A DNA stretch of 64,000 nt from a virus, in IMG/VR virus record IMGVR_UViG_3300032046_000015, positions 1 to 64,000 of that record. One strand, 5' to 3'. Positions 1,312-60,134 of this stretch are shown one piece after another; the first letter of the stretch is position 1; each line of letters starts with the position of its first letter. The position numbers and the translations under genes are program-made. Below the pieces are notes generated by a model, which saw only the letters and a list, made by a program, of their open reading frames with translations, was not told where the DNA came from and ran no database searches.

Positions 1312-1312
1312 A

Positions 1313-2098: not shown

Positions 2099-2102
2099 TC
2101 AC

Positions 2103-3410: not shown

Positions 3411-3413
3411 AAC

Positions 3414-4244: not shown

Positions 4245-4255
4245 TGTTGTTTACC

Positions 4256-6802
4256 TCATGGAGCAGATGACAGTGTCACATACTCTCTTAACTCTCCTGG
4301 CGATACAGATGTTGAACGCATCTTGCGATCAGCCCTGAACCTTTCAACTGCTTGCGCAATCACACGTCCATCCACATGTAGATTGCTGTGTATTACTACA
4401 ACAGACTCAGAACCACCAACATTTATGGAAGGAACAACGGTTGGGGCTGCTGTGATCTTTGCTGGTGTTGGGCCTGGTGAAACAGGAAGTGGGCCCAACT
4501 GTCCGGCACCTGGTACTAGACTCATAATGGCTTTAGCATTTTCAGCAATCCATTGCAGCTTGTTTACTATCCATGTAACCTTGTCAGCCACAAATTGTAT
4601 AGGTGCTTTGATAGCGTTGATCACCCCTTCTATAATGGGGCCAGCAGTTTGCCATGCCGTTGTAAGCACTCCTGATACTGTACCAGCCAACTCTGTAACG
4701 AATCCAACAACACTTTGGATGCCACTACTGATAGCATTCCATACACCCGTTGCCACCCCTTTCACAGTGTTGAATGCTCCCACCAAGGCACCCCATATAG
4801 TGGTGGCAACGCTGGTTATGACTTGTCCCAACAACATCCAGCCTTGTATAACCATTTTAACTACACCAGCAACCACCACAAATCCCACAACAACTCTGGT
4901 GGTTAACCAAATGGCCAGTTGGGCTAAATTGGCTATGAGCCAAGCAACCACTTGGACAATTGCCCCAATAACTATCACAATACCTGCGCCCCATGATTTG
5001 GCACTGCCACCTGAGCCTTTGAAGAACACACCGAACACCTGTTTCAACATAGCCACGTTTTTCTTGAGTGTGTTCCATACAGGCAGGAATTGGCTGAGTA
5101 TTGGTTTCCATACCAAGCTGAATCCCTCAACCATGCCAGTGAAAAATCCTTTGAAGAAATTGTAAACACCTTTGGCAACCCTGATGATGGTACCAAAAGT
5201 GCTCTCACCCTCTTTTCTAAACAGCAATATAGCAACTGTCAATAAGCCAATAACTACCACAATAGGCCAGAACATTGCGCTCAACACAGTAAGTGCTCCA
5301 GCGACTATGTTGAACAGAGCAGTGGCAACCGTCACAATGAATGCGATGGCAGCACCGATTGGCACTATCACAGCAGTTGCTCCTGCCAAAACTCCTATGA
5401 TGATCGTGGCCCATTTGGCTATGCTTTGCATTGTGGTACCACCAGCATATTGACTAAGCATTTCACCAAAGGATTTCACAGCTGCTTTGGCACCTTCCCA
5501 TAATCCACTTAGAACACCGATGCCCTGCTTCATTCCCTTAGCCACAGCCTGGGCTGTTGGGCCAATCTTTGCCCAGCGTTCATCCAGTTTCCTTGACTCC
5601 TCTTCAGTGCGTTTAATCGGATAATTGAGAATCTGGAGTGCCACAGCTAGATCAGACATGAATTTGGCTGCTGCTCTGAATCCTGTTGATAATACTGGCA
5701 GCAATGTTGTACCCACTTCAAGTCCAAAAGCTGCCACACCGCTCTTGAACAACTTGATCGATGTGTTGAAAAGATTCATGCGTTCAGCAGACATCTTGGC
5801 CATGTTGCTTTCTGCGTCCTTATATTGCTGTATCAAGTCTGCTACATATTCTGCGCCAGCACTCTTCAACAATTCAAAACCCTTGATGCCTTGTTGTCCG
5901 AACAACTGAAGCATCATCATGTTTTTCTTTGTTGGATCTTTGATGGTGTCCAACGCCTTGCTAATATCTGATACAAGAGCAGGAAGTGGTTTCAATTGCG
6001 TTTGGCCATTGGCTCCCACTTCTGTCAGAGTGATGTTGAAATGCTTGAGGAATTGCTGCGACAATTTGGATGGCTGGGATAGTTTAGTCAACATGGTGTT
6101 CAACATTCTACCACCCATTGTTCCTTTGAAGCCAGCATTCGCAAACACAGTCAACACAGCAGCTGTCTCTTCCAAACTCATCTTCAAGGCTGTAGCCTCA
6201 AATGTACTGGCCTTGAATGCTTGAGTCATCTGCCGCATCTCCTCTGCGTTGGCATCTCCAGCCAATGTTAACACAGCAATAGCGTGACCTGCGTTCTGGG
6301 CATCTATGTCTAACACCTTGAGATAAGATGATATGACTTGGGCTGACTCTCCCACTTCCATGCCTGACAATGAAGCAGCTTTCATAACAGCAGGCATTAG
6401 TGCCATCGTTTGTGTGACGTCAAAACCTGCTCCAAGCAATTCTTGCATTCCTTGTGCTGCTTGTTCACCTGAAAATTTAGTTGTAGCACCAAACTCTCTG
6501 GCTTGTTGCTCCAACATGCGTAGCTGGGGTGCGGTGGCACCTATAGCCAACCCTCTCACTTTGGCCATCGCAGCTTCAAAATTACCTGCTTGATAAGCCA
6601 TGACACCCAAGCCAGCAGCGAACACACCGCCTATGGTTAGCAAAGACTTGAAACCAGTTGCCATCATAGACATGCCCTTACTGGCAGCATCAAATCTTCC
6701 ACTCATATATGTGGCCGCTGCGCTGGCCTTGTTCATGCCAGCAATAGCAGAGTCACCCGTGAATTTTAATACTGCGCCTAAACCAAGTGTTTGGAATGCC
6801 AT
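4256..6802 (-). CDS. Tail tape measure protein
   Basis: At 848 residues this is the longest tail protein. The N-terminal third carries the TP901-type pattern: Ala-rich helices with TKFSGEQAAQGMQELLGAGF near residues 110-130, then a long helical region. Hydrophobic Ala/Val/Ile segments (about residues 465-540 and 610-680) could insert in the host membrane during injection. At about 1.5 A per residue, the length suggests a tail of very roughly 125 nm. It lies directly downstream of the frameshifted chaperone pair, as tape measures do. The C-terminal tail is short and basic. Confidence 0.9.
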   Translation of the reverse strand: MAFQTLGLGAVLKFTGDSAIAGMNKASAAATYMSGRFDAASKGMSMMATGFKSLLTIGGVFAAGLGVMAYQAGNFEAAMAKVRGLAIGATAPQLRMLEQQAREFGATTKFSGEQAAQGMQELLGAGFDVTQTMALMPAVMKAASLSGMEVGESAQVISSYLKVLDIDAQNAGHAIAVLTLAGDANAEEMRQMTQAFKASTFEATALKMSLEETAAVLTVFANAGFKGTMGGRMLNTMLTKLSQPSKLSQQFLKHFNITLTEVGANGQTQLKPLPALVSDISKALDTIKDPTKKNMMMLQLFGQQGIKGFELLKSAGAEYVADLIQQYKDAESNMAKMSAERMNLFNTSIKLFKSGVAAFGLEVGTTLLPVLSTGFRAAAKFMSDLAVALQILNYPIKRTEEESRKLDERWAKIGPTAQAVAKGMKQGIGVLSGLWEGAKAAVKSFGEMLSQYAGGTTMQSIAKWATIIIGVLAGATAVIVPIGAAIAFIVTVATALFNIVAGALTVLSAMFWPIVVVIGLLTVAILLFRKEGESTFGTIIRVAKGVYNFFKGFFTGMVEGFSLVWKPILSQFLPVWNTLKKNVAMLKQVFGVFFKGSGGSAKSWGAGIVIVIGAIVQVVAWLIANLAQLAIWLTTRVVVGFVVVAGVVKMVIQGWMLLGQVITSVATTIWGALVGAFNTVKGVATGVWNAISSGIQSVVGFVTELAGTVSGVLTTAWQTAGPIIEGVINAIKAPIQFVADKVTWIVNKLQWIAENAKAIMSLVPGAGQLGPLPVSPGPTPAKITAAPTVVPSINVGGSESVVVIHSNLHVDGRVIAQAVERFRADRKMRSTSVSPGELREYVTLSSAP

Positions 6803-6811
6803 ATATTTACA

Positions 6812-6964
6812 TCACTTCCTGGTGGCAGCTTTGATAGCTTCAACCTCATCATTCTTTTGCTTGCTCACTCTTTGCATGAACCATTCTCTCTCTGATCTTG
6901 TTAACCTACACACATCGCTCCAAGACATTCGCAGATGGTACATCAAATGGAATGCTTGTTCCAT
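6812..6964 (-). CDS. Tail chaperone C-terminal extension (-1 frameshift partner)
   Basis: A 50-codon frame starting MEQAFHLMYHLRMSWSDVCR and ending KAATRK, with LTRSEREWFMQR in the middle. This resembles the short helical extensions encoded between a tail chaperone and its tape measure gene. Its ATG has no good SD. However, the same frame is open upstream back to the slippery heptamer at 7000-7006, so it is best read as the part added to the 6979-7794 product after a -1 shift. The frame ends 9 nt before the tape measure ATG. Independent translation cannot be excluded. Confidence 0.65.
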   Translation of the reverse strand: MEQAFHLMYHLRMSWSDVCRLTRSEREWFMQRVSKQKNDEVEAIKAATRK

Positions 6965-6989
6965 CAATTCCTTGTAGGTTAAGGAATTG
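6965..6989 (-). promoter_or_regulatory. Frameshift-stimulating hairpin
   Basis: On the minus strand a perfect 9-bp stem (CAATTCCTT pairing with AAGGAATTG) encloses a 7-nt loop containing the zero-frame stop codon. It begins 10 nt after the slippery heptamer, close to the spacing used by known -1 frameshift stimulators. A downstream pseudoknot was not worked out. Confidence 0.6.
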
Positions 6990-7794
6990 AGGAATGTGAG
7001 AAAAAATTGTCATAATTCCAATCCACTCCTTGCTCATACTTTCTGTTGCAATTCTCGCACTTGGTCTCAACAGACATATTGAGCCCACCGTTCATGTCGT
7101 TTATTGCCTTGGCAATCAGCTCAATGTCCACCTTGTACAGAGAATCCAGGATGTCGTCAGTGGCTATGAAGTGGTCACGCTGTAATCCTGTAACACCAAC
7201 AATGCTGTCTCTTAATATGTTTGTCTTGACAGCACCATCGTTGGACAGACTTTTAACAGTTGAACCTTCCATGGCCATCCAAGTGCTTGGCCTTATTGTG
7301 ATCTCTTCATGGGTTGTGCCACTCACAATTATACCTTTTTTCAAGATAATTGTTCTGTGTAAGTCCATGGGTGACTTGACTTCCTGGTCATTTGAGTCCA
7401 CTTCCAGTTCATCTAATGATATGACAATTTTGCTTTTATTGCCACACATAGGGCAGGTGGACTGTAAGGATACATCAGCCCCTAATGCCTCACGCCTCAG
7501 CCACACGTACATGTACATAACATCCGATATGAACATCTGGCTGACCATGAGTCTGCGTTGGGCTTGATTCTTATCTTGGAAGGACATACCACCTATAGAG
7601 ATGGTCATGGCACCTAACACTTCAGAAATGAATGGACAAATGAATTGGTAGTCACCCGTCTCACGGATTTTGCCAACCATTCTCTCCTCTTCCATGCGCC
7701 ATGGTTTGTGTGTGAATTGCTTATGTAGTGTGCCGTCAGGAGCAAATAGCCCAATAGGCAACACATTTTGTAAGTCTTTCAGCGTCTGTTTCAT
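6979..7794 (-). CDS. Tail assembly chaperone / T4 gp26-like baseplate protein
   Basis: The chosen ATG at 7794 (MKQTLKDLQNVLPIGLFAPD) has GGAGG 8 nt upstream; an ATG 15 nt earlier contains that SD and is less likely. The 271-residue product has two CxxC pairs (CPMCGNK and CENCNRK), probably one zinc site, and ends NYDNFFSHSSIP. It resembles the T4 gp26-type baseplate protein family. Its place between tube and tape measure is where tail chaperones lie. The codons AAT TTT TTC near the 3' end form the slippery site T_TTT_TTC at 7000-7006, from which a -1 shift enters the 6812-6964 frame. It probably acts as a cytoplasmic assembly factor loading the tape measure. Confidence 0.75.
   Translation of the reverse strand: MKQTLKDLQNVLPIGLFAPDGTLHKQFTHKPWRMEEERMVGKIRETGDYQFICPFISEVLGAMTISIGGMSFQDKNQAQRRLMVSQMFISDVMYMYVWLRREALGADVSLQSTCPMCGNKSKIVISLDELEVDSNDQEVKSPMDLHRTIILKKGIIVSGTTHEEITIRPSTWMAMEGSTVKSLSNDGAVKTNILRDSIVGVTGLQRDHFIATDDILDSLYKVDIELIAKAINDMNGGLNMSVETKCENCNRKYEQGVDWNYDNFFSHSSIP
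7000..7006 (-). promoter_or_regulatory. Programmed -1 frameshift slippery site
   Basis: On the minus strand the heptamer TTTTTTC is in the X_XXY_YYZ register of the 6979-7794 gene (AAT TTT TTC). A -1 slip continues as CTC ACA TTC and so on, without a stop, through the ATG of the downstream frame to the TGA at 6812. A perfect hairpin follows 10 nt later. Confidence 0.65.
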
Positions 7795-7841
7795 CCTGAA
7801 ATCCTCCAAATAATGTTTTGCTGTGTAGTTTCATGTCAAGA

Positions 7842-8282
7842 TCAGATTGGCAGTATCTGATCTGCCTTGAACGTCCATTCCACGACTGCCGGTTCACCTT
7901 CATTAGCCATCTCCAAGTCAGGCAATTTGCGCTTGGAAATGAACACACCGACAACAGTGAACGTTCTCAACGTGTTGCCTGTTAAACTTTTGTGGATAAG
8001 TGTACCCACCTTTTTGTATGTAGGGGACACAGGGTCTTGGCCTTCTTTGAACCATAACTCCAAAGCAACCTGCTCCAGCAGGTGGTGCATCATGGTCTCA
8101 GCTGTGAACTCTACAGGTGCGGTGTTACCACCACTTGCCACAGTCCGGTCTGGCAGACTTACTGATTGTAACTCCTCTTCAATGCCGCTCACCTTGGTGA
8201 ATTCGATGGGCGGCATGCCAGCCACAAATAGTGTGAACTTGTTGACCGGAATGTGATCCGCTTGTAAACGACCTTTCAGCAT
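7842..8282 (-). CDS. Tail tube protein (gp19-like)
   Basis: A 146-residue protein with the typical tube pattern: an N-terminal NKFTLFVAGMPPIEFTKVSG strand pair, a long loop, and a C-terminal VEWTFKADQI strand. Size and pattern match the T4 gp19 family, whose hexameric rings stack into the inner tail tube. It is placed between sheath and chaperone genes as in most contractile tails. An upstream SD lies in the 36-nt gap after the sheath stop. Confidence 0.88.
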   Translation of the reverse strand: MLKGRLQADHIPVNKFTLFVAGMPPIEFTKVSGIEEELQSVSLPDRTVASGGNTAPVEFTAETMMHHLLEQVALELWFKEGQDPVSPTYKKVGTLIHKSLTGNTLRTFTVVGVFISKRKLPDLEMANEGEPAVVEWTFKADQILPI

Positions 8283-8318
8283 ATGATTGTGCCTCCATTC
8301 ACTGTGTTATCGTTTGGA

Positions 8319-10634
8319 TCACTGAGTGGTCTCAAAGATTCCCAGTTTGTTCATGGTGATGATGAATCTCTCCACCGTGTCCGCAAGCTTGAGTCCAACT
8401 TGCGCATTGAGATTGCCTGCCGCACGCTCAATCGGTGTGTTGATTTCTTTGTCCAATTTGATTTGGAGTGCCGCATCCAATGAGACATTCCTATCCAGTG
8501 CGCCCTTTGCATATTCAGGCAGGAAGTAAGCACGCAAAGCATTGAACGCTATCTGCTGTGTAATCGGATCATTGATTGCGAAGATGATCCAATCAAAATT
8601 CTCACGCAGAACGTTCTCATAATAGGACATCAACTCACGATGGTGTTTGAATCTCCACGCAGGATCAGTGCTCAATGACCGATCACCCCAGATGATCACA
8701 TTGCCGGATTTGAACTTGATCACCTGTATGCCTTGTGGGTTGAGTATCTCTTCATTCAACGTTCTGTCCCCAGTGGGCAGTCTCAACACCGCTGGCAATG
8801 TGACGTCTGTACCTGCCGCTGCCTTGTGGTATCCGTCATAGTTGCGTGCGACAAGTGCTTCACGTCCATGGATAGCACCAGTCAGACTGATCTGCTTGAA
8901 GCCATATCCTGTTGGATTGGCAATGTCACCGTATGATGGAAAGGCACACACACCAAAGTCATTGCGTCCGATTGTGTCGTTGATGTACTCTTCTGCGGCT
9001 GTCTCATCCACGATGTTGGGTGGCACTTCCACTCTGAACTGGTAATTCTTGGCTTCAGCATAAGCCAAACCAGCCTTCTGGATTGCTGTGGCAGTTACAC
9101 CAGGAGTGGCTATCTTGACAAGCCCAACATTCTTTCCAAACAGACTGTTGATTGGACTATCAATTGGGCTGAGCAGATTGGTGTATCTGCTGTCTGTTAT
9201 CGCATCCAACCCGTCATAACCACCTTCCAACTCCTGCGGTGCTATGACTATGTAAGGATCACCCGCTGTGGCCCCTGATGTCATATCATCACTTGGCCTG
9301 ACGGTGAGGCTTGCTTCTGTGTTCTGCGTTATGGTGTACTTGACACGCCTGTTCGCTGTGTTAGGAACCACAACACCGTTGATCAAGGCATCTTGAACAA
9401 ACGGATACAGTTCAAGAGTGATTGTGTCTCCTACAGCCCAATTGGTTACTCCAGCTGTGATCGTGAAATCCAATCCCAAATCGTTGGGCCAGCTATACGC
9501 CACCGCTGTTGTGCCGTTTGGCAAATCGTTTTTGGGATTGATCGATGTTTTGACTGACCACACTTCTGAACCTGGCGTTGTTGTGTCTGTACACTCCAAC
9601 ACAACCTGCTGTGCCCGTATGTCGCTGCCAAGCACAAATGTTCCAATGTCTCCATCCGCTCCACCTGGAGAGTTGATGACATATTGGCCAGGTAAACATG
9701 TCAATACTGTGGCTGTCAGCGTCAATGATCTGCCACAATAGTTGGCTGGCCTGACGTCTGGAGTGATTGATCCACTCCATAAATCGGTCACCTTGATCTC
9801 TTCATTGTTGCCGTCATCATTGATGACACGCACAAAATACCTGGCAGCGTTTGGATCCATGGACAGGTCAGGATATTTCAGAGTGAGGTCACCGCTGACG
9901 TACACATTGAGTCCCCACTCATTGATTGGATCCAATTCGCCATCCACGACCTCAACAGCGATTGATCTGCCTTCATTCTTTAAGTCCACCTCAAACTTTA
10001 GGTTTGTTGGATCAGAACCACCGGCAAGATCACTCGACATGGTGCTGTCTGACGCCACAGTGAACACCAGGTTGGTGGTTGAGTTTGCTGCGTTGGAAGC
10101 AACCACTGTGTATTCTTTGCCTGGAACACCAGCCAAGCGCAATTTGGCGTCTTTCCACAGGTTTTCTGGTATGGCCACCGCTGGCTTGTATCCTGTGTCC
10201 AGCGTTGTTTCTGTTATGTCAACCAAAGCTCCTACAGAAGCTGCCATGATCCTCTTGCGTCCAGCCCACCTGCCTGGGCTTTTTGCCTCTATCTTCACAA
10301 CATCACCACGTGGTGTTCGTCTGTTTTTTAATGTGGTGCTTGCTGTGATCTCTTTTCCGTCTGTTACTCGCACTGCGAACAGTTGGCCTGATCCTTGCCC
10401 CATATCAAAAAAATCCTTGATGGAATCAGGCACCAAAGATTCAGGAATCAGACCACCCGTTTTGCGAATGGCTGATGTCTTGCTGGGGCAGGATATGAGT
10501 GATCCGATTGGGCCTTTTTCAAGAGCACCCAAATAGCAGACCACGCCCAACTGTCCAGGTTGTATTGTCTTTTCTGGCGTCTGTTCAATCACTACAACCC
10601 CAGGTGCGTTTGTTGGGCCAAATCTCCTCTGCAT
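8319..10634 (-). CDS. Tail sheath protein
   Basis: At 771 residues this is a long sheath protein. The N-terminus (PGVVVIEQTPEKTI, then GVVCYLGALEKGP) matches the conserved sheath opening. The C-terminal third has the conserved core, with GNVIIWGDRSLS, a block ending VLRENFDWIIFAIND, and the helical tail LADTVERFIITMNKLG. The central 350 residues are a beta-rich insertion, probably domains exposed on the outside. The start has the strong SD AAGGAGA. This highly expressed gene is followed directly by the tube gene. Confidence 0.92.
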   Translation of the reverse strand: MQRRFGPTNAPGVVVIEQTPEKTIQPGQLGVVCYLGALEKGPIGSLISCPSKTSAIRKTGGLIPESLVPDSIKDFFDMGQGSGQLFAVRVTDGKEITASTTLKNRRTPRGDVVKIEAKSPGRWAGRKRIMAASVGALVDITETTLDTGYKPAVAIPENLWKDAKLRLAGVPGKEYTVVASNAANSTTNLVFTVASDSTMSSDLAGGSDPTNLKFEVDLKNEGRSIAVEVVDGELDPINEWGLNVYVSGDLTLKYPDLSMDPNAARYFVRVINDDGNNEEIKVTDLWSGSITPDVRPANYCGRSLTLTATVLTCLPGQYVINSPGGADGDIGTFVLGSDIRAQQVVLECTDTTTPGSEVWSVKTSINPKNDLPNGTTAVAYSWPNDLGLDFTITAGVTNWAVGDTITLELYPFVQDALINGVVVPNTANRRVKYTITQNTEASLTVRPSDDMTSGATAGDPYIVIAPQELEGGYDGLDAITDSRYTNLLSPIDSPINSLFGKNVGLVKIATPGVTATAIQKAGLAYAEAKNYQFRVEVPPNIVDETAAEEYINDTIGRNDFGVCAFPSYGDIANPTGYGFKQISLTGAIHGREALVARNYDGYHKAAAGTDVTLPAVLRLPTGDRTLNEEILNPQGIQVIKFKSGNVIIWGDRSLSTDPAWRFKHHRELMSYYENVLRENFDWIIFAINDPITQQIAFNALRAYFLPEYAKGALDRNVSLDAALQIKLDKEINTPIERAAGNLNAQVGLKLADTVERFIITMNKLGIFETTQ

Positions 10635-17926: not shown

Positions 17927-19120
17927 TTATGCCAGACCGATGTTGACTATCTTGACAACGGCATCAACTTCTTCAATCTGCGTATCCGCTTTCACGGTGA
18001 TCGCATACTGATTGACGCCTTTGAAGATGTCTCTGTCCTTCTCAATCCTGATGTCTCTGCCTATGGCAAGGATCAGGTTTTGGAAGTGTGTCAAGAGCAC
18101 CTGTGGATGCGCCTGGTATGTGACTTTGACATTCACAGGATCAGGCAGACTGCCGGTGCCGATGCGAACGATTGTGCCATTCACATAGTCCATGGTGTAG
18201 TCCACGCCCTGGACGTATGGAGTGATGGGAGCATTGCCCAATGTTTGGAGTGCCACGATTTCACTGGCGCTGATGATCGGCTTGTAGGCCAGCGATGCCA
18301 CAGTGAGGCCAGTCAGCGTGATGTGTTCCACTATCTTCTGTGTCGCTCCCACAAGCGGAACTGGTACCAGTTCAATGCCGAATGGGGTGAGGTTCTGAGT
18401 TGTGGTCAACGCAGCATCACCACCCGCTGTGGCACGTGTGGATACCTTGTTCCTGAAGTTTTGCTCGATGTCGCTGTTGGACAGGAATCTCAACATTGTC
18501 CTGTCTCTCTTGAATTTGTCGGGCATCTTCTTGATGGCTTCACTGAAGATGGCACTCTCAATGTCGGTTCCAGCCGCATCGTACACATGGCCGCCATCAG
18601 CCAGTTTCCACCAACCGGAACACAGCGACAGATAACTGTCCTTGACGACCTTCACTGGATCACCGTCCACGTACAGATCAGCTTCAACCGCTGCTGGGCC
18701 AAGCAGATTGCCGTTGATGTACAAGTCTTCCAGATCATTGGCCAACTGTGTGGCCATCATCTTCACGATGGTATCCTGGACAGCATCCCCTTCAATGTTG
18801 ATTTCACTGAAGGTGTCGCTGATCTCGAATGGCACCATGATCTCCACAGGCTTCATGGAGATTTTTGACGTGGTGACTCTGCGCCTGACGTTGGGGTCAG
18901 ATGCCTCTGCCTTTGGAACAGCGACACGCTTGCCCACGCCTATTTTGTCGATGGTGGCTTCTTCATTTCTGAACTTGACCACCCGCACGTTGTTTTTGAG
19001 CGATGTCACATCGATGACGTACTGGATGAACTTGTCGCTCTGCATGGGATTGAGTTTGCCGCCAGCAGCCAATTGATCCGCTGCGATGACTGCCTTCTCA
19101 ACCAATTCCTTGTTTGTCAT
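17927..19120 (-). CDS. Major capsid protein
   Basis: A 397-residue protein in the usual size range of HK97-fold capsid proteins. The pattern 'vPfeIsDtfsEiNIEGD' followed by a long helix (VQDTIVKMMATQLANDLEDL) matches the spine helix and E-loop region of this fold. A strong SD (GAGGAG) precedes the ATG. It lies immediately downstream of protease and scaffold genes, and codon choice is richer in C/G at third positions than its neighbours, as expected for the most abundant virion protein. Assignment is from context and fold pattern. Confidence 0.85.
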   Translation of the reverse strand: MTNKELVEKAVIAADQLAAGGKLNPMQSDKFIQYVIDVTSLKNNVRVVKFRNEEATIDKIGVGKRVAVPKAEASDPNVRRRVTTSKISMKPVEIMVPFEISDTFSEINIEGDAVQDTIVKMMATQLANDLEDLYINGNLLGPAAVEADLYVDGDPVKVVKDSYLSLCSGWWKLADGGHVYDAAGTDIESAIFSEAIKKMPDKFKRDRTMLRFLSNSDIEQNFRNKVSTRATAGGDAALTTTQNLTPFGIELVPVPLVGATQKIVEHITLTGLTVASLAYKPIISASEIVALQTLGNAPITPYVQGVDYTMDYVNGTIVRIGTGSLPDPVNVKVTYQAHPQVLLTHFQNLILAIGRDIRIEKDRDIFKGVNQYAITVKADTQIEEVDAVVKIVNIGLA

Positions 19121-19159: not shown

Positions 19160-19966
19160 TCAAACGACATTGCCCCAAAAACCTTTGTCACCTTTTTTGA
19201 CTTCTGTGGTTTGTCCATCCTGCCCTGGCTGTTTGCTCACTGCTACTGCACCCTCAATGGTTTCCAAACGTTTTACAACGTCTGAAATCTGAGTGCTGAA
19301 TTCACCGATTGCTTTTGCCAAGTCAGGTGACGTTGTGTCGGCCTTGGCAGTCGGTTGAGCCACAGGTGGCTGTGTTGCGACTGGTGCCGATGCGACTGGT
19401 GCCGATGCCGTTGGCAACGCATTGACATCCACTCCCAGATCATCCAGGATAGCCTTGAGGCTTTGGTATGCCGTCATGATCTTTTCCATGCGATGCTGGC
19501 TGATCTTGGCTCCAGCCTTCTCCACTGATTCTGTCGCCTTGGCTGCTGGTGCCGGATAACCTGCCCCCAGTTTGCCCATCGCTGCTTCCAGCTTTGACAT
19601 CAGACCTTCAAGCAACGGTTTCATGGCGCCAAGGGCATCCATTAACGGCTTGACATCTGCATATCCAGCCTTGGAAGCATCGGTTGGGACAGCATCAGGT
19701 GAAGTGGCCGCTGGCGCTGGTTGATCATCTGTCTTATGGACAGGTGCCGTGGGCTCACTGGTTGCTTCAGGCACAGGCTCATCGCCTGTTGTCTGTTTCA
19801 CCCGTTCAACTTCCATACTTTTGTCTCCTCTCTTTGATTGTTTTACCACCAAGAATTTATGGCGATTAGCAGCCCTGTCAACAAGGCTGACTTCATCCAC
19901 TGCTATATCCAACAACCTTGCTGGGCCTGTTGGTTGATTATCCTCTTTGGTTTTATCCTTGCTCAT
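19160..19966 (-). CDS. Scaffold-like protein with XkdF C-terminal motif
   Basis: A 268-residue protein. Residues 17-42 (LLDIAVDEVSLVDRAANRHK and following) match the segment that normally ends XkdF-type phage proteases, whose body is encoded by the gene just upstream. The rest is Ala/Pro/Thr-rich with predicted helices (KPLLEGLMSKLEAAMGKLG; EFSTQISDVVKRLETIEG), like a capsid scaffold. The ATG overlaps the protease stop (ATGA) with SD GAGAGGAG, so translation is coupled. It probably forms the prohead core and is removed by the protease. The split of the protease signature over two chains is unusual. Confidence 0.65.
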   Translation of the reverse strand: MSKDKTKEDNQPTGPARLLDIAVDEVSLVDRAANRHKFLVVKQSKRGDKSMEVERVKQTTGDEPVPEATSEPTAPVHKTDDQPAPAATSPDAVPTDASKAGYADVKPLMDALGAMKPLLEGLMSKLEAAMGKLGAGYPAPAAKATESVEKAGAKISQHRMEKIMTAYQSLKAILDDLGVDVNALPTASAPVASAPVATQPPVAQPTAKADTTSPDLAKAIGEFSTQISDVVKRLETIEGAVAVSKQPGQDGQTTEVKKGDKGFWGNVV

Positions 19967-22900
19967 GCCACACTCCTCTCTGGGCCAAGCCTTCTTGCCA
20001 CTGCCATACCTTTAATGCTGAAGCCAGTCAGTTGATTATTTTCAACTTGTTTCCAAGTCTCATTGTCTGTAACATGAACTGTCATGATCCATGTGCCTGG
20101 CTTGACTTGCTGATCACCAATCATCATGGTGATCGGTGCTATCCAACTTTCAACCACCTCAATTGGGCGTGAGTAATCTTCATGCATTACACCAGTCTTT
20201 GAACCCTTATTGTATTCAGCCAAGAAATCATGGGCAGCTTTTTCAATAACTGGTGCATCATAAATTTGATCTTGCGCATCGAATGTTTCAGGTTCCAACA
20301 CAATGCCTGTCACCAATCGTTTGACTGTGTCTATCTTGATGATAGTGGTGTTGTAAGCCTTTTGTGTAGGTGCTGTAGCAGGTGGTTTGGCTGTCTCAGG
20401 ATTGTTTGGAAATTCCTGATCGGCTGGTCTGGCAATCATCCATTCTCTCCTGCCTGGCCCAACAGGTACAAATTGAAATATCCAACGTCCTTTAAGTAAT
20501 TTGCCGTCAAACCAAAACTCTTTATAATGTGGATCTTGTGTGCCTGCCTTCCACTTGATCTTATCTATGATGGTAAGTCTTGACCAAGCATTAGTAGTGG
20601 AACCAACAGCACCTGGTGGAAAAGATTGAGGCTTGTTGGCCCCAACATTCATCCATGAGAGTGGGCCTTGTATTACTTGACCCGATGCTGCTCCACCTTC
20701 ATCTGATCTGGCTGTCTTGAAATTAGCCAGTATCTTGTGTGTTGGATCAAGTTCAATAAATTTGTTAATTTGGAATTGATTGCCTGGCGTGAATCCCTCT
20801 CCACCTTCCCAGTATGGCGCTGTGCCTGGCCGCATCCGTATGTCTGTATGAATGGAAACTGGTTCAACCAAAGCAAGTAATTTCAACTGATCTTTGTTCA
20901 ACGTGGTTTTGTCTATACCCTTAATCAAGGATGATAGCTGACTACTATCCCCATCGGCTGCGTTGGCAATGGCAGCTGTCCAGTTTCCTTTGGCAATCTG
21001 ATCCAGTTTAGTTATCTGTACTGGTGTCAGTTTAATAGGATCAACGCCAAAATGAAAAGTGCCACCCAACAGTTTCACTTGATCCTCTGTCAAACCACGT
21101 TCATGCGTCTGTAGGATTGCTGTGCCAGAGTCACCAGCCTTGAAATCCAATTGCCCTTCTGTCTGTTTCCTTATGGCCAATCTCTTTTCCACCTTGAAGC
21201 CAGATTCCAAAAGTGCTGCTCTGGTCTCAGGATCAGCTTGTAACACATTTCCTTCATCCGCACGCTGTACAATACTCTTGATGTTCTCTGCCTTGGTTGA
21301 TCCCACTTCCCTGTCCCTGACCTTGGGAACCACTGCTGTTATCTTCCACACATCGGCAACATTATCATATTCTGGAATAATCTCTTCAACTCCCAAAGTG
21401 ATAATGCTTCCATCTGGTGCGTCCAGATTAGTGTTGAATGTTTTGCCCAACGTAACAAGCTTGCCCTTATCATCCTCATAGGCAACTGTGTAATTCCATG
21501 TGCGGGGTGAACCTGATACTGTCTGCCTGCTTAACACTTGTACTTTTATCTCAACCAGATTCTTAATCTTTGACCACGCAGGAGTCTGTCCAGTTAGTGG
21601 ATAATCTGAATTCACTGCTTTGGCAACAGCCCCTTCTGAACCTGGTTGCTTAGAAACATCTGAGATTATTTTCAACAAAGCAGCTTTGTTATCAACAACA
21701 TGCTTTGGTGTTATTTTCATGAACTTGAAATCATACTTACCAAACAAATCCTCCAATATGCCACGTCTTTCTGTCCAAGGTTTGCTGTGTAAATCCTGTC
21801 CATCATAATACAATACATCGAACACATGTGCTATTATTGAAGCCTTGGAACCATCAGCCAGAGTCAATTGACCCGACACAGGCACAACTTGGTTACCTGC
21901 CCAAGCAGCCAAATCCTTCCTGGCGACTGGTCTTCCATTATCGTGAACTGCTCCAAGATCAGCATCCAAAATAACTCCTTGACCTATGGCCTTGAGATCA
22001 TCTACAAGAGATGGAAATTGCTTGGAACGATCATCCTTGGAATCTTCAAAGAAAATTAATGTCTTGTCTGCACTGTCTGCTTCCAACACAGTGCGCCAAC
22101 CGTTATATTTTTGCTCAACATCAATTCCTATCTTTTCTTTCAACAGTGCTTCAGCCCAACCAGTGTTAAACTCCTCTGGCGTGAAATACTCTTGCTGTGA
22201 ATATCCGCCAGCAGTCTTCAATGGTATGAAACGTTGTAATGGTTTCAATGTGTCCGCTTTTGACACATTGATCCTCTTGGCCTCAGGTCTCAGAACAGCC
22301 ACCAAATCATACAGAGGAATATGGTCATCATGTGGCCCAGATGCGTGGTACACATAATGAACAAGATGTCTCATACCTTCTGGGATTTGGTTTCGCACTT
22401 TCACTTCCAATGCCGAATCAGGATTGTCCTGCCTGATGAGCATGTCTATGTCATGAGGTTCTTGCTGCTTAATGGAACCACCAACCAAATTGATATAACC
22501 TGGACACAACACCATGTCGCCCAAACCGTTGAAAATCTGCGCTGGTGCTTCTGCTGTTTTATCAAACACCACAACAGCATTGTTATCCTCTGTTCTGAAT
22601 ATATACTTAGCAACTTCATATCCTGCCATACAACTACGCAAATCATCCATACTCTTGAATTCACGTTTATGTGTAAGATCAAGCCTTTTACCCAGTGGCA
22701 CCAAGTGGATGGCTCGCATCCTGGCAATGCGCAGACTTTCATCTATGGCCGCATTTGGATCAGATAGATGTTCCAGAGTGTGCATGCTTAGCACAGTGTC
22801 AAATGCCCCATCAGGATATGACAGCTTGTTGACATCCTCTTTTTTCACTTTGTGATTGTGTTGCCCGCACAGCTTCATAGCTGTTATGGAATTGTCCACG

Positions 22901-23319
22901 CCTTCCACATTGAACCCTGACTTGGATAGAACATCCAATTCACGTCCTGCTCCGCATCCCATCACTAACACATCCTGTCCTTGGATGTATGGACTGATGG
23001 CCGCAAAATCTCTTATGAATAAATCTGTAACATCAATCAGCCCAGGGCTGAAATAGTTTTCACCATACTCTTCATCTGTTGGCATTGATGTTGCCTTCCC
23101 AAGTTGCGTGTAGTTCAGACCACGCTTTATCATCTCATCTCTCAATATATTAAACTTGTTCAGAAGTGTAGCCACAGTCAATCCATCGGTGGACTTACCA
23201 TCGCCAGCCCCTCCTTCAGTTAACAGTGCATACAACTGGTGACAGCGCCAATGTAAGTTCAACAACTCCTGGTTGTCCACCGCTGCTAGACTGTCTTTTG
23301 TGATATCGTTTATTTTCAT
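19963..23319 (-). CDS. Fusion: methyltransferase-like, NTase-like, DNA ligase, LigD-PE-like, XkdF protease
   Basis: 1118 residues in one frame. Residues 115-190 look like a SAM methyltransferase (VLVMGCGAGRELDVL, GVDNS, FDTVLSMHTLEHL). Residues 275-345 have a nucleotidyltransferase pattern (NLVGGSIKQ then HDIDMLI). Residues 390-600 carry ATP-dependent ligase motifs: I EQKYNGWR (K403), III ILDADLG, IIIa AHVFDVLYYDG, IV SEGAVAK, V WSKIKN; an OB-like segment follows to about 670. Residues 735-965 resemble the LigD 3'-phosphoesterase (HTDIRMRPG, KLLKGRWIFQF, REWMIARP). Residues 990-1110 match XkdF proteases (GVMHEDYSRP with H1046; LTGFSIKG with S1101). It sits in the head protease position between MuF-like and scaffold-like genes. 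Motif I has Asn where KxDG has Asp. Domain calls are from motifs. Confidence 0.8.
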   Translation of the reverse strand: MKINDITKDSLAAVDNQELLNLHWRCHQLYALLTEGGAGDGKSTDGLTVATLLNKFNILRDEMIKRGLNYTQLGKATSMPTDEEYGENYFSPGLIDVTDLFIRDFAAISPYIQGQDVLVMGCGAGRELDVLSKSGFNVEGVDNSITAMKLCGQHNHKVKKEDVNKLSYPDGAFDTVLSMHTLEHLSDPNAAIDESLRIARMRAIHLVPLGKRLDLTHKREFKSMDDLRSCMAGYEVAKYIFRTEDNNAVVVFDKTAEAPAQIFNGLGDMVLCPGYINLVGGSIKQQEPHDIDMLIRQDNPDSALEVKVRNQIPEGMRHLVHYVYHASGPHDDHIPLYDLVAVLRPEAKRINVSKADTLKPLQRFIPLKTAGGYSQQEYFTPEEFNTGWAEALLKEKIGIDVEQKYNGWRTVLEADSADKTLIFFEDSKDDRSKQFPSLVDDLKAIGQGVILDADLGAVHDNGRPVARKDLAAWAGNQVVPVSGQLTLADGSKASIIAHVFDVLYYDGQDLHSKPWTERRGILEDLFGKYDFKFMKITPKHVVDNKAALLKIISDVSKQPGSEGAVAKAVNSDYPLTGQTPAWSKIKNLVEIKVQVLSRQTVSGSPRTWNYTVAYEDDKGKLVTLGKTFNTNLDAPDGSIITLGVEEIIPEYDNVADVWKITAVVPKVRDREVGSTKAENIKSIVQRADEGNVLQADPETRAALLESGFKVEKRLAIRKQTEGQLDFKAGDSGTAILQTHERGLTEDQVKLLGGTFHFGVDPIKLTPVQITKLDQIAKGNWTAAIANAADGDSSQLSSLIKGIDKTTLNKDQLKLLALVEPVSIHTDIRMRPGTAPYWEGGEGFTPGNQFQINKFIELDPTHKILANFKTARSDEGGAASGQVIQGPLSWMNVGANKPQSFPPGAVGSTTNAWSRLTIIDKIKWKAGTQDPHYKEFWFDGKLLKGRWIFQFVPVGPGRREWMIARPADQEFPNNPETAKPPATAPTQKAYNTTIIKIDTVKRLVTGIVLEPETFDAQDQIYDAPVIEKAAHDFLAEYNKGSKTGVMHEDYSRPIEVVESWIAPITMMIGDQQVKPGTWIMTVHVTDNETWKQVENNQLTGFSIKGMAVARRLGPERSVA

Positions 23320-23582
23320 ACCATTTCAATTGCTTGTGTTCTTGAGCCAGAAAAGTTCAGAAACAAAGCATGTAAAAATTCCTCACCATCATCCGGTGTG
23401 ACTAGCTTGTTGAATGAACCATCTTCATTGAAGACAGGCATTCCATTCTTGAACCTATCTTTGAGCATCTGATCATTGTAATCAGCAACCACCTTGTCTC
23501 CATCCAACTTGAAAGTTGCCAATACTTGATGGGTAGTTGGCATGTCGTTGAATATGACTTGTACTGCTTTCACGTTATCCAC
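23316..23582 (-). CDS. Small head-region protein, unknown
   Basis: An 88-residue acidic protein (MDNVKAVQVIFNDMPTTHQV) ending FSGSRTQAIEMV. It overlaps the MuF-like gene by 8 nt and the large fusion gene by 4 nt (ATGA), so it is part of the same translationally coupled head operon. The sequence looks like a small alpha/beta domain. No family is recognised. Confidence 0.6.
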   Translation of the reverse strand: MDNVKAVQVIFNDMPTTHQVLATFKLDGDKVVADYNDQMLKDRFKNGMPVFNEDGSFNKLVTPDDGEEFLHALFLNFSGSRTQAIEMV

Positions 23583-24828
23583 CGTCCATAGGTTTCACAA
23601 CGGCTTGGGAATCTCCAAACTCATAGAATTTGGTTTCATTAGCAGAATAATCCATTGCACTTGATCTGGGTAAAAGCCTTGGATCAGCTTCCAGCAATCT
23701 TGTCTCAATCGGATTGGCCCTGGGCGGTGGTGGCGCTGCTGGGCCAGTTGTTGGCACCTGCCAAGTCTTGTTAGTAGTCACAACAATAGTACGACAATGG
23801 AAATGATAAGGTGGAAAAGCCAAACCACCTTCTGCCATGGCAGTCGCTGTTGCTGTGGATGGAAGTGCTCCAGCACTTATTCCAAACTTTTGAGAAGCAT
23901 CTCCTGCTGACATCCAACCTGCTGCTGCCTTCACTCCACCTGGCGTGACAGAGTTCAAAACCTTATCACGTTGTTCCAATCCCAGTGGCACGCTGAATTC
24001 CTTGCCATTCATCAATCGGCATATTTCACTTGTGCGTTCATCCAGCACAGCGTCAATCCGATAAACTTCAACCCCTGCCGTGGCAAACGTTTCAAGGTTT
24101 GCCCACGTGGTTGCCCGTGTCGCAGCGTTGGCAGTGAGACCTTCAAAATATAAGTCTGTTGGCCCTCTCCATCCTGGTGGCGGAACACCAACAGCTGCTG
24201 GCAGCGTGCCATTTCTTATTTGGTTGGCTAGATTATGTTGTAACTCTCTCGCAGCTTCTTCACGGCTGAGACCTTGAGTCAACATCGTGTTGTTAACGTC
24301 CTCATGCACTAGTGTTTGTAAATTGTCGCCATAGAAATTACCAATCCAGTGCATGTTATCTTTTCTCATCCAATCAATGGCTTCAGAATCAACCAGATTG
24401 AAATTGGGAGCAACTTTCAATTTATCGGAAAAACCAGCACGCTGAAGATTGTACATTAAGCCTGTGGCCTTTAACACTTCATTCCTGACCTTCTCAGGAT
24501 ATGTGTCCAGAGTTGTGTCGAATATGCGGTTGAACAGTTTGGCATCATTTTGTGTGAGTGGCCCTTTGCGTCCTTTCAATTCACCCAGAGCACGTTGAAC
24601 TGCTTGTTGGACTGTGATATCAAACTTACCATTCAATAATTTATTCAAACTTGTCTCAATGGTTCCGACATTGGGTGCTGCCATGATTACCACATCAGTA
24701 ATCAAGTCATCCAGCATATGGACAACATGCTTGGCTTGGTGCTTATCCTTGAAGTGGATACCACCGACAACCAGTGGTTGATCATTTTCCGTTATCACGC
24801 ACACGCTTGAACCATCTCCATTTGCCAT
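23575..24828 (-). CDS. Minor head protein, MuF-like
   Basis: A protein of about 417 residues. The block YRIDAVLDERTSEICRLMNG (about residues 255-275) and the later FPPYHFHCRTIVV give the conserved 'D.rts..C....g' and 'pP.H..CR' signature of Mu gpF / SPP1 gp7 minor head proteins, which bind portal and DNA. The start is uncertain: the frame is open to a TTG at 24885, but the ATG at 24828 (MANGDGSSVCVITENDQ) gives less overlap with the upstream gene; neither has a convincing SD. A Pro-rich linker (APPPPRANP) precedes the C-terminus. Confidence 0.75.
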   Translation of the reverse strand: MANGDGSSVCVITENDQPLVVGGIHFKDKHQAKHVVHMLDDLITDVVIMAAPNVGTIETSLNKLLNGKFDITVQQAVQRALGELKGRKGPLTQNDAKLFNRIFDTTLDTYPEKVRNEVLKATGLMYNLQRAGFSDKLKVAPNFNLVDSEAIDWMRKDNMHWIGNFYGDNLQTLVHEDVNNTMLTQGLSREEAARELQHNLANQIRNGTLPAAVGVPPPGWRGPTDLYFEGLTANAATRATTWANLETFATAGVEVYRIDAVLDERTSEICRLMNGKEFSVPLGLEQRDKVLNSVTPGGVKAAAGWMSAGDASQKFGISAGALPSTATATAMAEGGLAFPPYHFHCRTIVVTTNKTWQVPTTGPAAPPPPRANPIETRLLEADPRLLPRSSAMDYSANETKFYEFGDSQAVVKPMDGG

Positions 24829-25003
24829 TGGACTTGGACTGTTCTTTTGTTGTGTTAGCTTCACAGCCTTCTTTGAAGCACGCAACTGGCTGTTTAACTA
24901 AACACTGATCTTTTGGAATGCCTATACTCGCACACAATTCATTGACTACCTGGCGTTGTGTGTTCACTAGACTTTCCAATTGATCGTGACCTTTTTTGCT
25001 CAC
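24782..25003 (-). CDS. Small protein in head operon, unknown
   Basis: A 73-residue basic protein (MSKKGHDQLESLVNTQRQVV) with three cysteines and a Lys/Arg-rich C-terminus. Its ATG overlaps the upstream stop (ATGA). Its 3' end overlaps the MuF-like gene by about 47 nt, which is long for this genome and leaves the MuF start uncertain. No known domain. Confidence 0.5.
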   Translation of the reverse strand: MSKKGHDQLESLVNTQRQVVNELCASIGIPKDQCLVKQPVACFKEGCEANTTKEQSKSNGKWRWFKRVRDNGK

Positions 25004-25203
25004 GTCACGTTGCCTCTTTTTGTTTCGATGTAAGTCTTCAACGCCACCAACGCTGATGTGTTATTTGTTACAGTTTCAATGAGACATGAAAGCAAATTCT
25101 CTTCACGTCTGCTCTGCTCTCTATATTGAAGATACCAGAATATCAACACAACGCCAGCTGGCCCACTGTATTGAAGTATCAACTTGAGGTATTCCAATAT
25201 CAT
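25000..25203 (-). CDS. Small membrane protein, holin/spanin-like candidate
   Basis: A 67-residue protein with one hydrophobic segment near residues 4-24 (LKLILQYSGPAGVVLIFWYL), a basic stop-transfer (QYREQSRREE) and a polar helical C-terminus. Small one-helix membrane proteins are often phage holins or Rz-like partners, but this one sits between portal and MuF genes, away from the endolysin. Start and stop both overlap neighbours by 4 nt (ATGA). Membrane location is well supported; function is open. Confidence 0.6.
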   Translation of the reverse strand: MILEYLKLILQYSGPAGVVLIFWYLQYREQSRREENLLSCLIETVTNNTSALVALKTYIETKRGNVT

Positions 25204-26900
25204 TTAATATCCTCTCCATCGATGATTGCTTGGGCAACCGCTGTGCGAAGTGCCATCAATGCTTGGACAACATCTCCACCATCGATGATTGCTTTTTGAA
25301 CTATTGATTTCATGGGTGCTATTGTGCCCATGTTAATTGGCCCAGTATTCTTGGCTGCTTCTGCCACTTGGATAGTGAATGGAACATCTGGATCAATCGC
25401 AGTCACTTTTCCAAGATTGGTACCAAAGATGTCTGACATGATATTCCTGGCAATCTGTGGCGTCAACCCGCCTGTACCTTCTGATGCTGCTAGCATCTTG
25501 GTCAGGCTTTCACTGTCTGTAACGTTTGGGCCATTGGAAATAAAACGGTGATACACGATGCCTAGCCTTGGCAGTATCTGGCTATTCATGAAAGCATCAA
25601 AAGCAGTGCGCTCAGGAGCAAACACCTGCTCATCAGCTAACTGTCGGCTGGCTTCTGCTGTTGCTCTGGAATAGTCTTCAGCCTTGCCAACAAATATCGG
25701 TGGCAGTCTAAAGGCACCACGCACCTTGTCACGATTGTTCGCATCATAAGATTGAAACATCGCATCTTTGATTTGTTGGTTAGTCAATGGCGTGATACTT
25801 ATCTTGATAGCATCCGACTGTCCAGGCATGGGCGCAACCTCAACTGGCTCAGCTTCCAGAATAAGGAATTTGCTATAATTGCTGCTGCCCTTAATATTGG
25901 ATTCAACAAACTGTTCGATGCGCTTGATCGTGCCAGTGGTCAACATACCACCACCGGACACAGTCACTACCATGGATGGCACGTTGTTGTTTTTTAACGT
26001 AGTGTAGTTGATCTCCTCTGCCGCACGACTGCCGAATATGCTGAACAGATTGCCAATAAACCTTGGCAACCCATATGGTGTTCTGGCCGATGGTATCCTG
26101 AAGTGATGCATGGAATTGGCTCTGTACTTGATCTCAATAGGATTGTTTGAATATTCACCCGTCTCACAGTTCAAATTTCTTGGATCACCCAGCTGCTTGA
26201 AATATACCTTCTGCCCCTCTCTGATCTGTATGAAACGTCTGAAGCGCACCATCCTCTTAACCTTCACCAAAACTGGCACGCCATTCTGATCCACTTCTAT
26301 CTGTGGCACTTCCACCATGACTGGAGTTGTGTCCAATGGTGTAAGTCTAACTGTCCAAGCTGGTGCCCACTCCAACCATCTGATCGCACCTTGAGTATCC
26401 TCAATAATTTCCCAGTATCCGTTGCCTGTGAGTTCCAAATCACGTCTGGTCAACCTGCGCAATGATATGAAATTACTGTTGAAGCAACAGTTGTTGAAAA
26501 AGTTGGCCAGCTTGATTCTTTCAACTTCCATTGTCTTTAGGATTTCAGGATTGGCCTCAATTGCTTGTGGCAGAGTAACAGGAACAATGCGATGGCCAAA
26601 ACCTTCTATGTTCACTTCCATGGCCTCAACTGTAGGTTGTAGCTCACTGTTATTCTCAATCAGCATTGACAATGGCAGTGGATCAAGTGGTGGCTCGACA
26701 ACAGTCTTGCTGTTTACCAAAGTTGCCCAAGGATCATCTTGAGATAGTTGCTTGCTGTAAGCAGATTCAGATTCAGCAACATCACCTATCTGTTTAGTGA
26801 TCCCAACAATCGTTGCCCTGACTGCTCTAGCATTTGGATTATCAACACCCGCTGTCACCACAGTTAGTCTGTTAACCTTTTGTCTTTGGACGTCACTCAT
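25200..26900 (-). CDS. Portal protein
   Basis: A 566-residue protein directly after the large terminase, the standard portal position. It shows SRATAEASRQLADEQVFAPE near residue 410, typical of portal clip/stem regions ('s.a..e.....f...v.p....fe'), and GNGYWEIIEDTQGAIRWLEW near residue 155, matching the 'G.ay..i.r...G.i..L..l' core. The C-terminus is helical. TAATG overlap with terL couples their translation. It forms the dodecameric DNA channel at the head vertex. Confidence 0.85.
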   Translation of the reverse strand: MSDVQRQKVNRLTVVTAGVDNPNARAVRATIVGITKQIGDVAESESAYSKQLSQDDPWATLVNSKTVVEPPLDPLPLSMLIENNSELQPTVEAMEVNIEGFGHRIVPVTLPQAIEANPEILKTMEVERIKLANFFNNCCFNSNFISLRRLTRRDLELTGNGYWEIIEDTQGAIRWLEWAPAWTVRLTPLDTTPVMVEVPQIEVDQNGVPVLVKVKRMVRFRRFIQIREGQKVYFKQLGDPRNLNCETGEYSNNPIEIKYRANSMHHFRIPSARTPYGLPRFIGNLFSIFGSRAAEEINYTTLKNNNVPSMVVTVSGGGMLTTGTIKRIEQFVESNIKGSSNYSKFLILEAEPVEVAPMPGQSDAIKISITPLTNQQIKDAMFQSYDANNRDKVRGAFRLPPIFVGKAEDYSRATAEASRQLADEQVFAPERTAFDAFMNSQILPRLGIVYHRFISNGPNVTDSESLTKMLAASEGTGGLTPQIARNIMSDIFGTNLGKVTAIDPDVPFTIQVAEAAKNTGPINMGTIAPMKSIVQKAIIDGGDVVQALMALRTAVAQAIIDGEDIK

Positions 26901-28312
26901 TATAGCAACCCTGGTTCCTCTCTTGTTTTCCTTACACGCCTCAGTGTAGCCATGCTGATAGCAAAATCAAGAGCATCAATAATATCGTCATGTTCTCCAT
27001 TTGGGAATGATAACAGTTCATCTTCCAACTCCGGCATATCACGTCCCATCAGTATTTCACCATTCTCAAATTTCTGTGCTAGCTTTGTCATTCTGGTCAG
27101 CTTGTCCAATGATGTGAATATCGGATGGGCACGAACAAACTTGTATTGCGGCTGACTTTTCAATTCCTGATAAACTGCCTTCTGATATGCGTTGGATTCT
27201 ATCCCAGCCCTGATGGGCTCATATTGTTTGAACATTTTAACAATCAATTTTATCTGTTCAGGAAATGGGGTATGAACACGCTGATATTCTACAAGATAAA
27301 ACTTGTTTGCCAGCCTGTCATAAGCAATTGTGAATATAACAAAGAAGTCATGGAATAGTTGCTGACCGATAGCCAAGTCAACTCCTTGATAGTATTCCAG
27401 CCCCTTTGGCACCTCATCATAATATTGAAAGTGTTCATCGTTAAACACGTTGCCCATCATGGCTTGCGTGTCCAACATGTACTGGCAGTTAAACACAATG
27501 CTGCCACTTGCTCTGCGCTTGCCTTCAAACCAGACTGGTGGATGACGCTCTGGCCATGGGCTGCGTCCTTGTGAATCTAGTGCTGGAATGACAAGATGGT
27601 TCTTGGCAAACTCATTCTTGATCAAGTGGCCATATAGATCATGGTAATGATAACGTGTTCCAATGATCCATTCCTTGCCACCCTCTTCCAACGTTGGCTC
27701 CAACTCAGTGTAGTACCATTCCTTAACCTTCTCACGTTGACCGTATGTCCTGCTGTTTTCTATTGACACCAAGTCATCCGCTATTATCATGTCAAAGTGC
27801 CGACTGACTACACCACCATCTATGCCAACTGTGGTTATGTTGCTCTCCATGGCAGATGTGGTACGATTGGCAACATTGATTTCACGTGTGTCCCACTTGT
27901 CCCCTACTTGGTTGCCAAATATCTCTGTCAACTGTCTCTCTTGTAGCCTGTTCTTGATACCACGCAAAAAGGTTTCAGCCTGTGTACATGTCCTTGAACT
28001 CAGCAATATCCTGATGTTTGGATCCACCAAGACTTGCAACACAGACTGACCAATGGTTAATGGCTGAGTTTTTCCTGCTCCACGATATGCCAGGATAACT
28101 CCACGTGGATGATTGCGTTGAAACTCCATCATCTGGTGGTGGAACGGCTTGATGATTAGTGCTGGGCTATCAAACACAAACTTGCAAAGCACATCCAATC
28201 GCTTGTCTTCTAACACAGCCTGACGGATGTACTCATTGCGCATTTCACGCTTGTGCTGCCACTGTTGGACTAGTGTGTCCCGTTCTGGCGTTGATATTTG
28301 TAAGCCTGGCAC
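26900..28312 (-). CDS. terL: Terminase large subunit
   Basis: 470 residues with a complete ATPase-nuclease layout. Walker A is AYRGAGKT (75-82) and Walker B is DMIIADDL (174-181). The RNase H-fold nuclease has acidic positions GVDLA (D312), GIESN (E372) and HDDIIDALDF (441-450). The start is a GTG with SD GAGGAA 8 nt upstream; no ATG fits. It drives ATP-dependent DNA packaging through the portal encoded next. A strong hairpin lies upstream of its SD. Confidence 0.93.
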   Translation of the reverse strand: MPGLQISTPERDTLVQQWQHKREMRNEYIRQAVLEDKRLDVLCKFVFDSPALIIKPFHHQMMEFQRNHPRGVILAYRGAGKTQPLTIGQSVLQVLVDPNIRILLSSRTCTQAETFLRGIKNRLQERQLTEIFGNQVGDKWDTREINVANRTTSAMESNITTVGIDGGVVSRHFDMIIADDLVSIENSRTYGQREKVKEWYYTELEPTLEEGGKEWIIGTRYHYHDLYGHLIKNEFAKNHLVIPALDSQGRSPWPERHPPVWFEGKRRASGSIVFNCQYMLDTQAMMGNVFNDEHFQYYDEVPKGLEYYQGVDLAIGQQLFHDFFVIFTIAYDRLANKFYLVEYQRVHTPFPEQIKLIVKMFKQYEPIRAGIESNAYQKAVYQELKSQPQYKFVRAHPIFTSLDKLTRMTKLAQKFENGEILMGRDMPELEDELLSFPNGEHDDIIDALDFAISMATLRRVRKTREEPGLL

Positions 28313-48805: not shown

Positions 48806-48806
48806 G

Positions 48807-58212: not shown

Positions 58213-58225
58213 AGATTTTTGCGCC

Positions 58226-60087: not shown

Positions 60088-60104
60088 CTGTGTTAGGATT
60101 ATAT

Positions 60105-60134
60105 GGGATGAGGCCAACTTGTGGCCTCATTCCC
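60105..60134 (-). promoter_or_regulatory. Hairpin in the 60.1-kb gap (no T-run)
   Basis: On the minus strand GGGAATGAGGCCA pairs with TGGCCTCATCCC (60105-60116 with 60122-60134, one bulge), 1 nt after the stop of the sigma-like gene. It is followed by ATATAATCC, not by a T-run, so it is not a classical terminator. TATAAT here is a possible -10 box for the FAD operon, but no good -35 is seen. Confidence 0.5.

Follow-up and report, generated by a model that had tools for sequence, protein, structure and literature searches.

In the DNA analyzed here, the first 64,000 nucleotides (positions 1 to 64,000, "the window") of the IMG/VR virus record IMGVR_UViG_3300032046_000015, a single gene fuses a phage head maturation protease to a series of DNA-processing domains. 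Its product comprises, from the N- to the C-terminus, a helical hairpin (LH), a class I S-adenosylmethionine (SAM)-dependent methyltransferase, a nucleotidyltransferase (NTase)-like domain, an ATP-dependent DNA ligase with an oligonucleotide/oligosaccharide-binding (OB)-type region, a LigD-type phosphoesterase (PE) and an XkdF protease. The reading that we favor, with a probability of roughly 0.55, is that of a polyvalent head-locus protein, that is, an XkdF-type protease with an N-terminal extension consisting of an NTase-ligase-PE repair core and swappable DNA- or SAM-dependent enzymes, which would be packaged to mend or protect the entering DNA.

A head maturation protease with a long N-terminal extension

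The uninterrupted frame of 1118 codons reported in the original prediction is real. The same fusion is present in a contig of a viral collection, L001 (L numbers denote related loci), with 46-49% identity from end to end, and the G+C content is even (0.43-0.45) across the gene and its neighbors encoding the terminase large subunit (TerL) and the portal, so that a frame error or chimera is excluded; furthermore, the domain order recurs in many independent metagenomes. The unusual size and number of domains might suggest that an assembly or frame artefact joined separate genes, an explanation to which we assign a negligible probability.

The XkdF-like protease proposed for the C-terminus was readily confirmed: residues 992-1107 match Pfam Peptidase_S78_2/XkdF (E 1.6e-26, 93 bits against a cut-off of 24), phrog_3017 matches the same part (E 2.4e-32), and the four residues D1014, H1046, E1057 and S1101, including the His and Ser singled out earlier, are invariant in all 16 XkdF-bearing loci. 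The gene order in the window is TerL, portal, MuF, a small open reading frame (ORF), the fusion, a scaffold-like ORF and a head protein, with 4-base overlaps joining the fusion to its neighbors on both sides. TerL or the portal lies directly upstream in 24 of about 34 loci, many of the others beginning near a contig end, and in L006 and L012 the major head protein is encoded downstream of the fusion. The head-gene setting is thus strongly supported by the order in the window and by the same placement in most relatives with enough flanking sequence. In the isolate Pseudomonas phage Boevelstad, a bare XkdF protein of 150 aa occupies this slot, and in L007, which is without a fused XkdF, the next gene encodes a head maturation protease of a different family; because of this shared slot and the separate protease, the fusion can be read as a usual protease gene that was extended N-terminally by about 985 residues (Table 1).

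XkdF genes of isolates are annotated in places as "DNA methyltransferase", apparently a propagated label (L052 2378-3427, L053 2911-3363, L003 2989-3621). These were considered as candidate fusions and rejected in the three records, the gene being too small or showing no sign of fusion.

Table 1. Domains of the fused gene and its neighbors in the window (all on the minus strand)
Feature	Residues	Coordinates	Basis
Whole fused gene (start 23319, stop 19963)	1118 aa	19963..23319	single open frame; fusion common to L001
Helical LH hairpin	12-73	23101..23286	profile from the family, E 6e-22 (window itself in the seed)
Class I SAM methyltransferase	93-256	22552..23043	Pfam Methyltransf_11
Minimal NTase-like domain	261-378	22186..22539	GG..D290-x-D292
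ATP-dependent ligase catalytic domain	390-586	21562..22152	Pfam DNA_ligase_A_M
OB-type region behind the ligase core	~587-691	21247..21561	alignments to archaeal ligases and Agrobacterium LigD
LigD-type 3'-phosphoesterase	732-971	20407..21126	family alignment, profile, predicted structure
All-helical insertion (~80 aa) inside PE	743-822	20854..21093	alignment; helices in the model
XkdF head maturation protease	987-1112	19984..20361	D1014, H1046, E1057, S1101
Scaffold-like protein		19160..19966	phrog_3017 C-terminal part (257-387 of 402), E 1.8e-13; 4-base overlap with the fusion
Head structural protein, probable major capsid		17927..19120	phrog_1623 (head and packaging), E 2.1e-75
Small ORF without assigned function		23316..23582	4-base overlap with the fusion start
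MuF-type minor head protein		23575..24885	Pfam Phage_Mu_F, E 1.4e-4 (under cut-off); several head PHROGs to 1e-9
Portal		25200..26900	Pfam, E 4.7e-17; phrog_12, E 3e-37
Terminase large subunit		26900..28312	Pfam Terminase_6C, E 2.8e-12; phrog_38, E 2e-84

The ligase and its altered motifs

The ligase reading holds, given the match to DNA_ligase_A_M (E 4.1e-17, 63 bits against a cut-off of 26.2) and the archaeal ligases that match this domain in the PDB (E 9e-9), in an alignment reaching residue 628. Residues 356-713 align with Agrobacterium LigD, and among the matches listed in plasmid records the best are LigD-type ligases, with 24% identity. The adenylation lysine, previously numbered K403, is K404. 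A complete motif I (KxDG) and the motif III Glu are missing from the window ligase, which has KYNG and, in place of the Glu, D454.

The doubt raised earlier over the Asn of motif I is therefore justified. Across the family, the Lys of motif I, the Glu of motif IV and the Lys of motif V are each conserved in 33 of 33 sequences, and the motif I Asp is lost only in the window (KYNG) and in L001 (KFGG), KxDG being present in all other relatives that cover the site. The motif III Glu is replaced by Asp in the same two proteins and in L044, and is kept by all other relatives covering it. In the tree, the window and L001 form a single clade with full support and a long branch, and L001 has in addition lost the Trp of motif V. 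In DNA ligases, these two residues, the Asp of motif I and the Glu of motif III, hold waters bound to the metal and contacts to the ribose (PMC6698739).

These private changes could mean that the ligase of this clade is dead or has been repurposed as an adenylate- or end-binding module. The protein would then serve inside the head in a structural or DNA-binding role, with the protease, the PE and the methyltransferase as its active parts. We regard this explanation as quite unlikely because the clade retains the Lys, Gly and Arg of motif I, the Glu of motif IV and the Lys of motifs IV and V, and because the general motif is KxxG, which is all that the motif I consensus of tRNA ligases comprises (PMC3400036).

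The LigD-type phosphoesterase

The Pfam scan of the window protein itself did not detect the PE domain, and the identification of a LigD 3'-phosphoesterase, correctly anticipated from short motifs, comes from the structure model and from the relatives. For an AlphaFold model of residues 725-1118, a PE-XkdF segment of moderate confidence (mean predicted local distance difference test score, pLDDT, 69; low in the linker), the seven best PDB chains are all LigD PEs (3p4h, 3n9b with two chains, 3p43, 3n9d, 2lj6 and 5dmp; E 9.6e-5 to 7.7e-3). The three best PDB matches of the PE family profile are archaeal LigD phosphoesterases (E 0.003-0.25), and Pfam LigD_N matches four of nine relatives (best 9e-4). 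The helical insertion, unusual for a PE, splits the QxHxRG motif from the HxDxR motif; in L005 and L010, fewer residues are inserted at this position. Within the family, His739 and Arg828 are conserved in 30 of 31 sequences and His824 and Asp826 in all 31, and the metal site of the PE is kept. Judging from the order of the motifs, Q737, H739, H824, D826 and R828 would correspond to Gln40, His42, His48, Asp50 and Arg52, residues with assigned roles in the PE of Pseudomonas aeruginosa LigD (PMC8656161).

The N-terminal domains

The methyltransferase pattern noticed earlier corresponds to a Methyltransf_11 match over residues 119-200 (E 1.3e-14, over the curated Pfam cut-off); among the relatives, this domain was found in L001 only. 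The GG..DID pattern proposed to mark an NTase is the hG[GS]..DxD motif of the Pol-beta/MNT superfamily and is kept in the family (G280 in 28 of 28, D290 in 28 of 29 and D292 in 29 of 29 sequences). The domain is predicted by AlphaFold2 with a pLDDT of 81, and a Foldseek search with this model placed many MNT/TENT structures near the top, all non-significant (E 0.65 or worse); the sequence profile gave no PDB match and no useful Pfam match.

The LH hairpin occurs in about 20 family members, mostly directly ahead of the NTase. Its pattern is ELxxxHxxxHxxx..EDxxxLHxxxxxEMxxRGxxH, at times with two copies per protein, as in the first ORF of L007 (residues 17-72 and 961-1011); further copies were noted in L039, L041 and L046. 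Pfam Pyr_excise (pyrimidine dimer glycosylase) is weakly matched by 5 of 12 LH members (best 2.7e-5); as a sign of kinship with T4 endonuclease V, these weak matches were not accompanied by any recovered in the PDB.

Relatives of the fusion

Scans of viral contigs with family alignments yielded about 34 distinct loci, including the window and the virus ANMV-1, nearly all of them on viral contigs. The core order NTase-ligase-(uracil DNA glycosylase, UDG)-PE is kept across these loci, 16 of which, counting the window, end in XkdF; profiles derived from the family itself form part of the basis for this order. The front and inserted domains vary and include a class I methyltransferase, one or two D12 (Dam) methylases, a C5 methylase, a 2H phosphoesterase, a metallo-beta-lactamase fold and DUF6884; in L001, a D12 adenine methylase sits between the ligase and the PE. 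The accessory domains (Dam/D12, C5 methylase, UDG, 2H phosphoesterase) mainly act on DNA or nucleotides. When five family proteins were used as queries against 50,697 phage records, the core was found in ANMV-1 only, without an XkdF match. A scan of genome contigs with the window ligase alone gave no match, the same scan with the family alignment recovered one contig of the family from a metagenome-assembled genome and two distant Planctomycetota ligases, and a PE-only scan of viral contigs returned nothing beyond the L001 contig.

Several further features of these loci were noted. Read by eye, ASCH-like and TGT/DpdA-like domains add to the variable set, the latter in or beside the fusion in L013 (138-755 and 1316-5221), L023, L039 and L041, and a QueE-like ORF lies upstream of L013; the TGT/DpdA-like and QueE-like genes suggest 7-deazaguanine DNA modification. 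PHROGs assign L012 5937-7490 to queuine tRNA-ribosyltransferase, and the idea that L012 carries its NTase on the MuF protein was dropped, that protein being assigned to queuine tRNA-ribosyltransferase relatives. In L015, an ORF of 1289 aa (1012-4881), far above the usual MuF size, lies between the portal and the fusion, and in ANMV-1 (L002) the ligase-PE gene is directly followed by a Cys-rich protein of 1166 aa with a C-terminal end that looks MuF-like by eye (5868-9368).

Likeness to known systems

The fusion shares with LigD an ATP-dependent ligase and a PE in one chain, the ligase aligning with LigD and the PE with LigD PE structures. It differs from LigD in carrying a small NTase-like domain before the ligase, in its protease, and in that a polymerase domain of the archaeo-eukaryotic primase (AEP) type had no Pfam match in the window protein or the relatives scanned. 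Ku was not found in the record of the window or in ten related records; the host may have a Ku. Because neither Ku nor a LigD-type polymerase domain was found, the fusion is not classified as LigD, and the resemblance is one of shared parts as judged from the alignments, not of membership. The mycobacteriophages Omega and Corndog, in which a phage Ku uses the host LigD for infection (as cited in PMC7719229), offer a parallel with the reverse set: Ku is present there, whereas the window phage has ligase and PE without Ku.

Polyvalent proteins of phages and conjugative elements, for which packaging and injection have been proposed (Iyer et al. 2017, PMC5512222), likewise combine several disparate enzyme domains in a single chain, and their genes lie among those for virion proteins. 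The fusion fits this description, one chain at a virion locus carrying several enzymes of unrelated activity, and delivery along with the DNA would be its putative counterpart. Shared themes include 2H domains, DNA methylases, MuF and portal fusions and Pol-beta NTases. A term search of the main text of PMC5512222 found none of DNA ligase, glycosylase and XkdF; furthermore, the anchor there is a MuF, portal or zincin peptidase, whereas here it is a capsid maturation protease.

Among individual proteins, ANMV-1 AJP62006.1 ("ATP-dependent DNA ligase"; host, an uncultured archaeon) has the same NTase-ligase-PE core and is encoded between the portal and the MuF-like protein, but is 866 aa long, without an XkdF match or a methyltransferase, and has KFDG as motif I; TerL of ANMV-1 is on the opposite strand. 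The XkdF proteases of Pseudomonas phage Boevelstad and Lactococcus phage 56701 share the domain and the slot between the portal and scaffold/capsid genes but are of 150-349 aa, have no ligase or PE match and are often labelled "DNA methyltransferase". We found no description of such protease-repair fusions in the literature searched, the coverage of which was incomplete.

The phage genome and the site of action

The whole record (G000) comprises 83,016 bases with an exact 127-bp direct repeat (1-127 and 82890-83016; 1-127 of the window), and because of this terminal repeat it is probably a complete, circularly assembled genome. Assemblers often use a word length of 127, so the repeat does not necessarily mark a physical end. 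The record encodes a contractile tail (sheath), PolIII alpha, RecA, Thy1 and a protein matching sigma-70 region 2, from which we infer a bacterial myovirus. UDG, a 5'-3' exonuclease, a PNKP-like phosphatase, an SMC-like ATPase and a metallophosphoesterase (SbcD-like by position) are encoded separately from the fusion and, together with RecA, make up a repair and recombination block at window positions 42006-49829. Elsewhere, a class III aminotransferase, Thy1, a HAD-type hydrolase and a FAD-binding protein are encoded consecutively (window 56076-60117), possibly for nucleotide or base modification.

Besides the fused ligase, no ATP- or NAD-dependent ligase was found in this record, and the same is true of the ten related records. 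Next to RecA, PolIII alpha, UDG, the exonuclease and the PNKP-like phosphatase, this could indicate that the protein is simply the ligase and repair enzyme of the phage, expressed through the late operon and freed by the protease to act on replicating or packaging DNA in the infected cell rather than in the virion. This appears unlikely given that replication ligases of phages are normally separate early genes, that fusion to a head protease would bring the ligase late and into the procapsid, and that portal or TerL adjoins the fusion in most relatives.

The original prediction went further toward the virion and envisaged a LigD-type end-joining machine. In its present form, this would be a Ku-independent analogue of LigD whose polymerase-like domain is of another type. 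Synthesized as one polyprotein with the capsid protease, it would be released inside the head and then injected, so as to repair or circularize the incoming genome. Conservation of the NTase-ligase-PE core in about 34 loci strengthens the idea, and its equation with LigD itself falls with the missing Ku and AEP polymerase; we consider it a possible but tentative refinement.

A putative repair kit in the virion

Under the polyvalent-protein reading, the extension of DNA-end and base-repair enzymes would be virion cargo. Head maturation proteases work inside the procapsid. Given its operon position and 4-base overlaps, the fusion would be made late, together with the head proteins, and would enter the procapsid through its protease domain co-assembling with the scaffold. 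At maturation the protease, whose catalytic residues are kept, would cut itself and the head proteins, leaving the repair domains in the head. These domains would then exit with the DNA, clean 3' ends, fill or tag ends and carry out methylation; in members with an intact ligase, they would also seal nicks or breaks of the incoming genome.

Several observations weigh against this reading. Counterparts of His84 and Tyr88 of the LigD PE were not seen in the family alignment, and the XkdF part of the AlphaFold model matched no PDB fold. The NTase fold is weakly supported, the motif and the recurring non-significant MNT-type matches suggesting it short of proof. In about half of the relatives, some of them truncated, the ORF does not include XkdF. 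Finally, with both the motif I Asp (to Asn in the window) and the motif III Glu (to Asp) changed, sealing is uncertain in the window/L001 clade and is likely reduced or altered; if it is weakened, selection there may act on the functions of the PE and the methyltransferase and on end binding.

Most of the proteins known to be delivered by virions serve in host takeover or counter restriction. The domain composition and genomic setting described here suggest that this phage and its relatives load a repair kit into the particle along with the DNA. If so, some phages would carry genome repair, namely a ligase, LigD-type end cleaning and in some cases a uracil glycosylase, inside the particle, the capsid protease would double as a loading tag, and the family would be a source of minimal repair modules.

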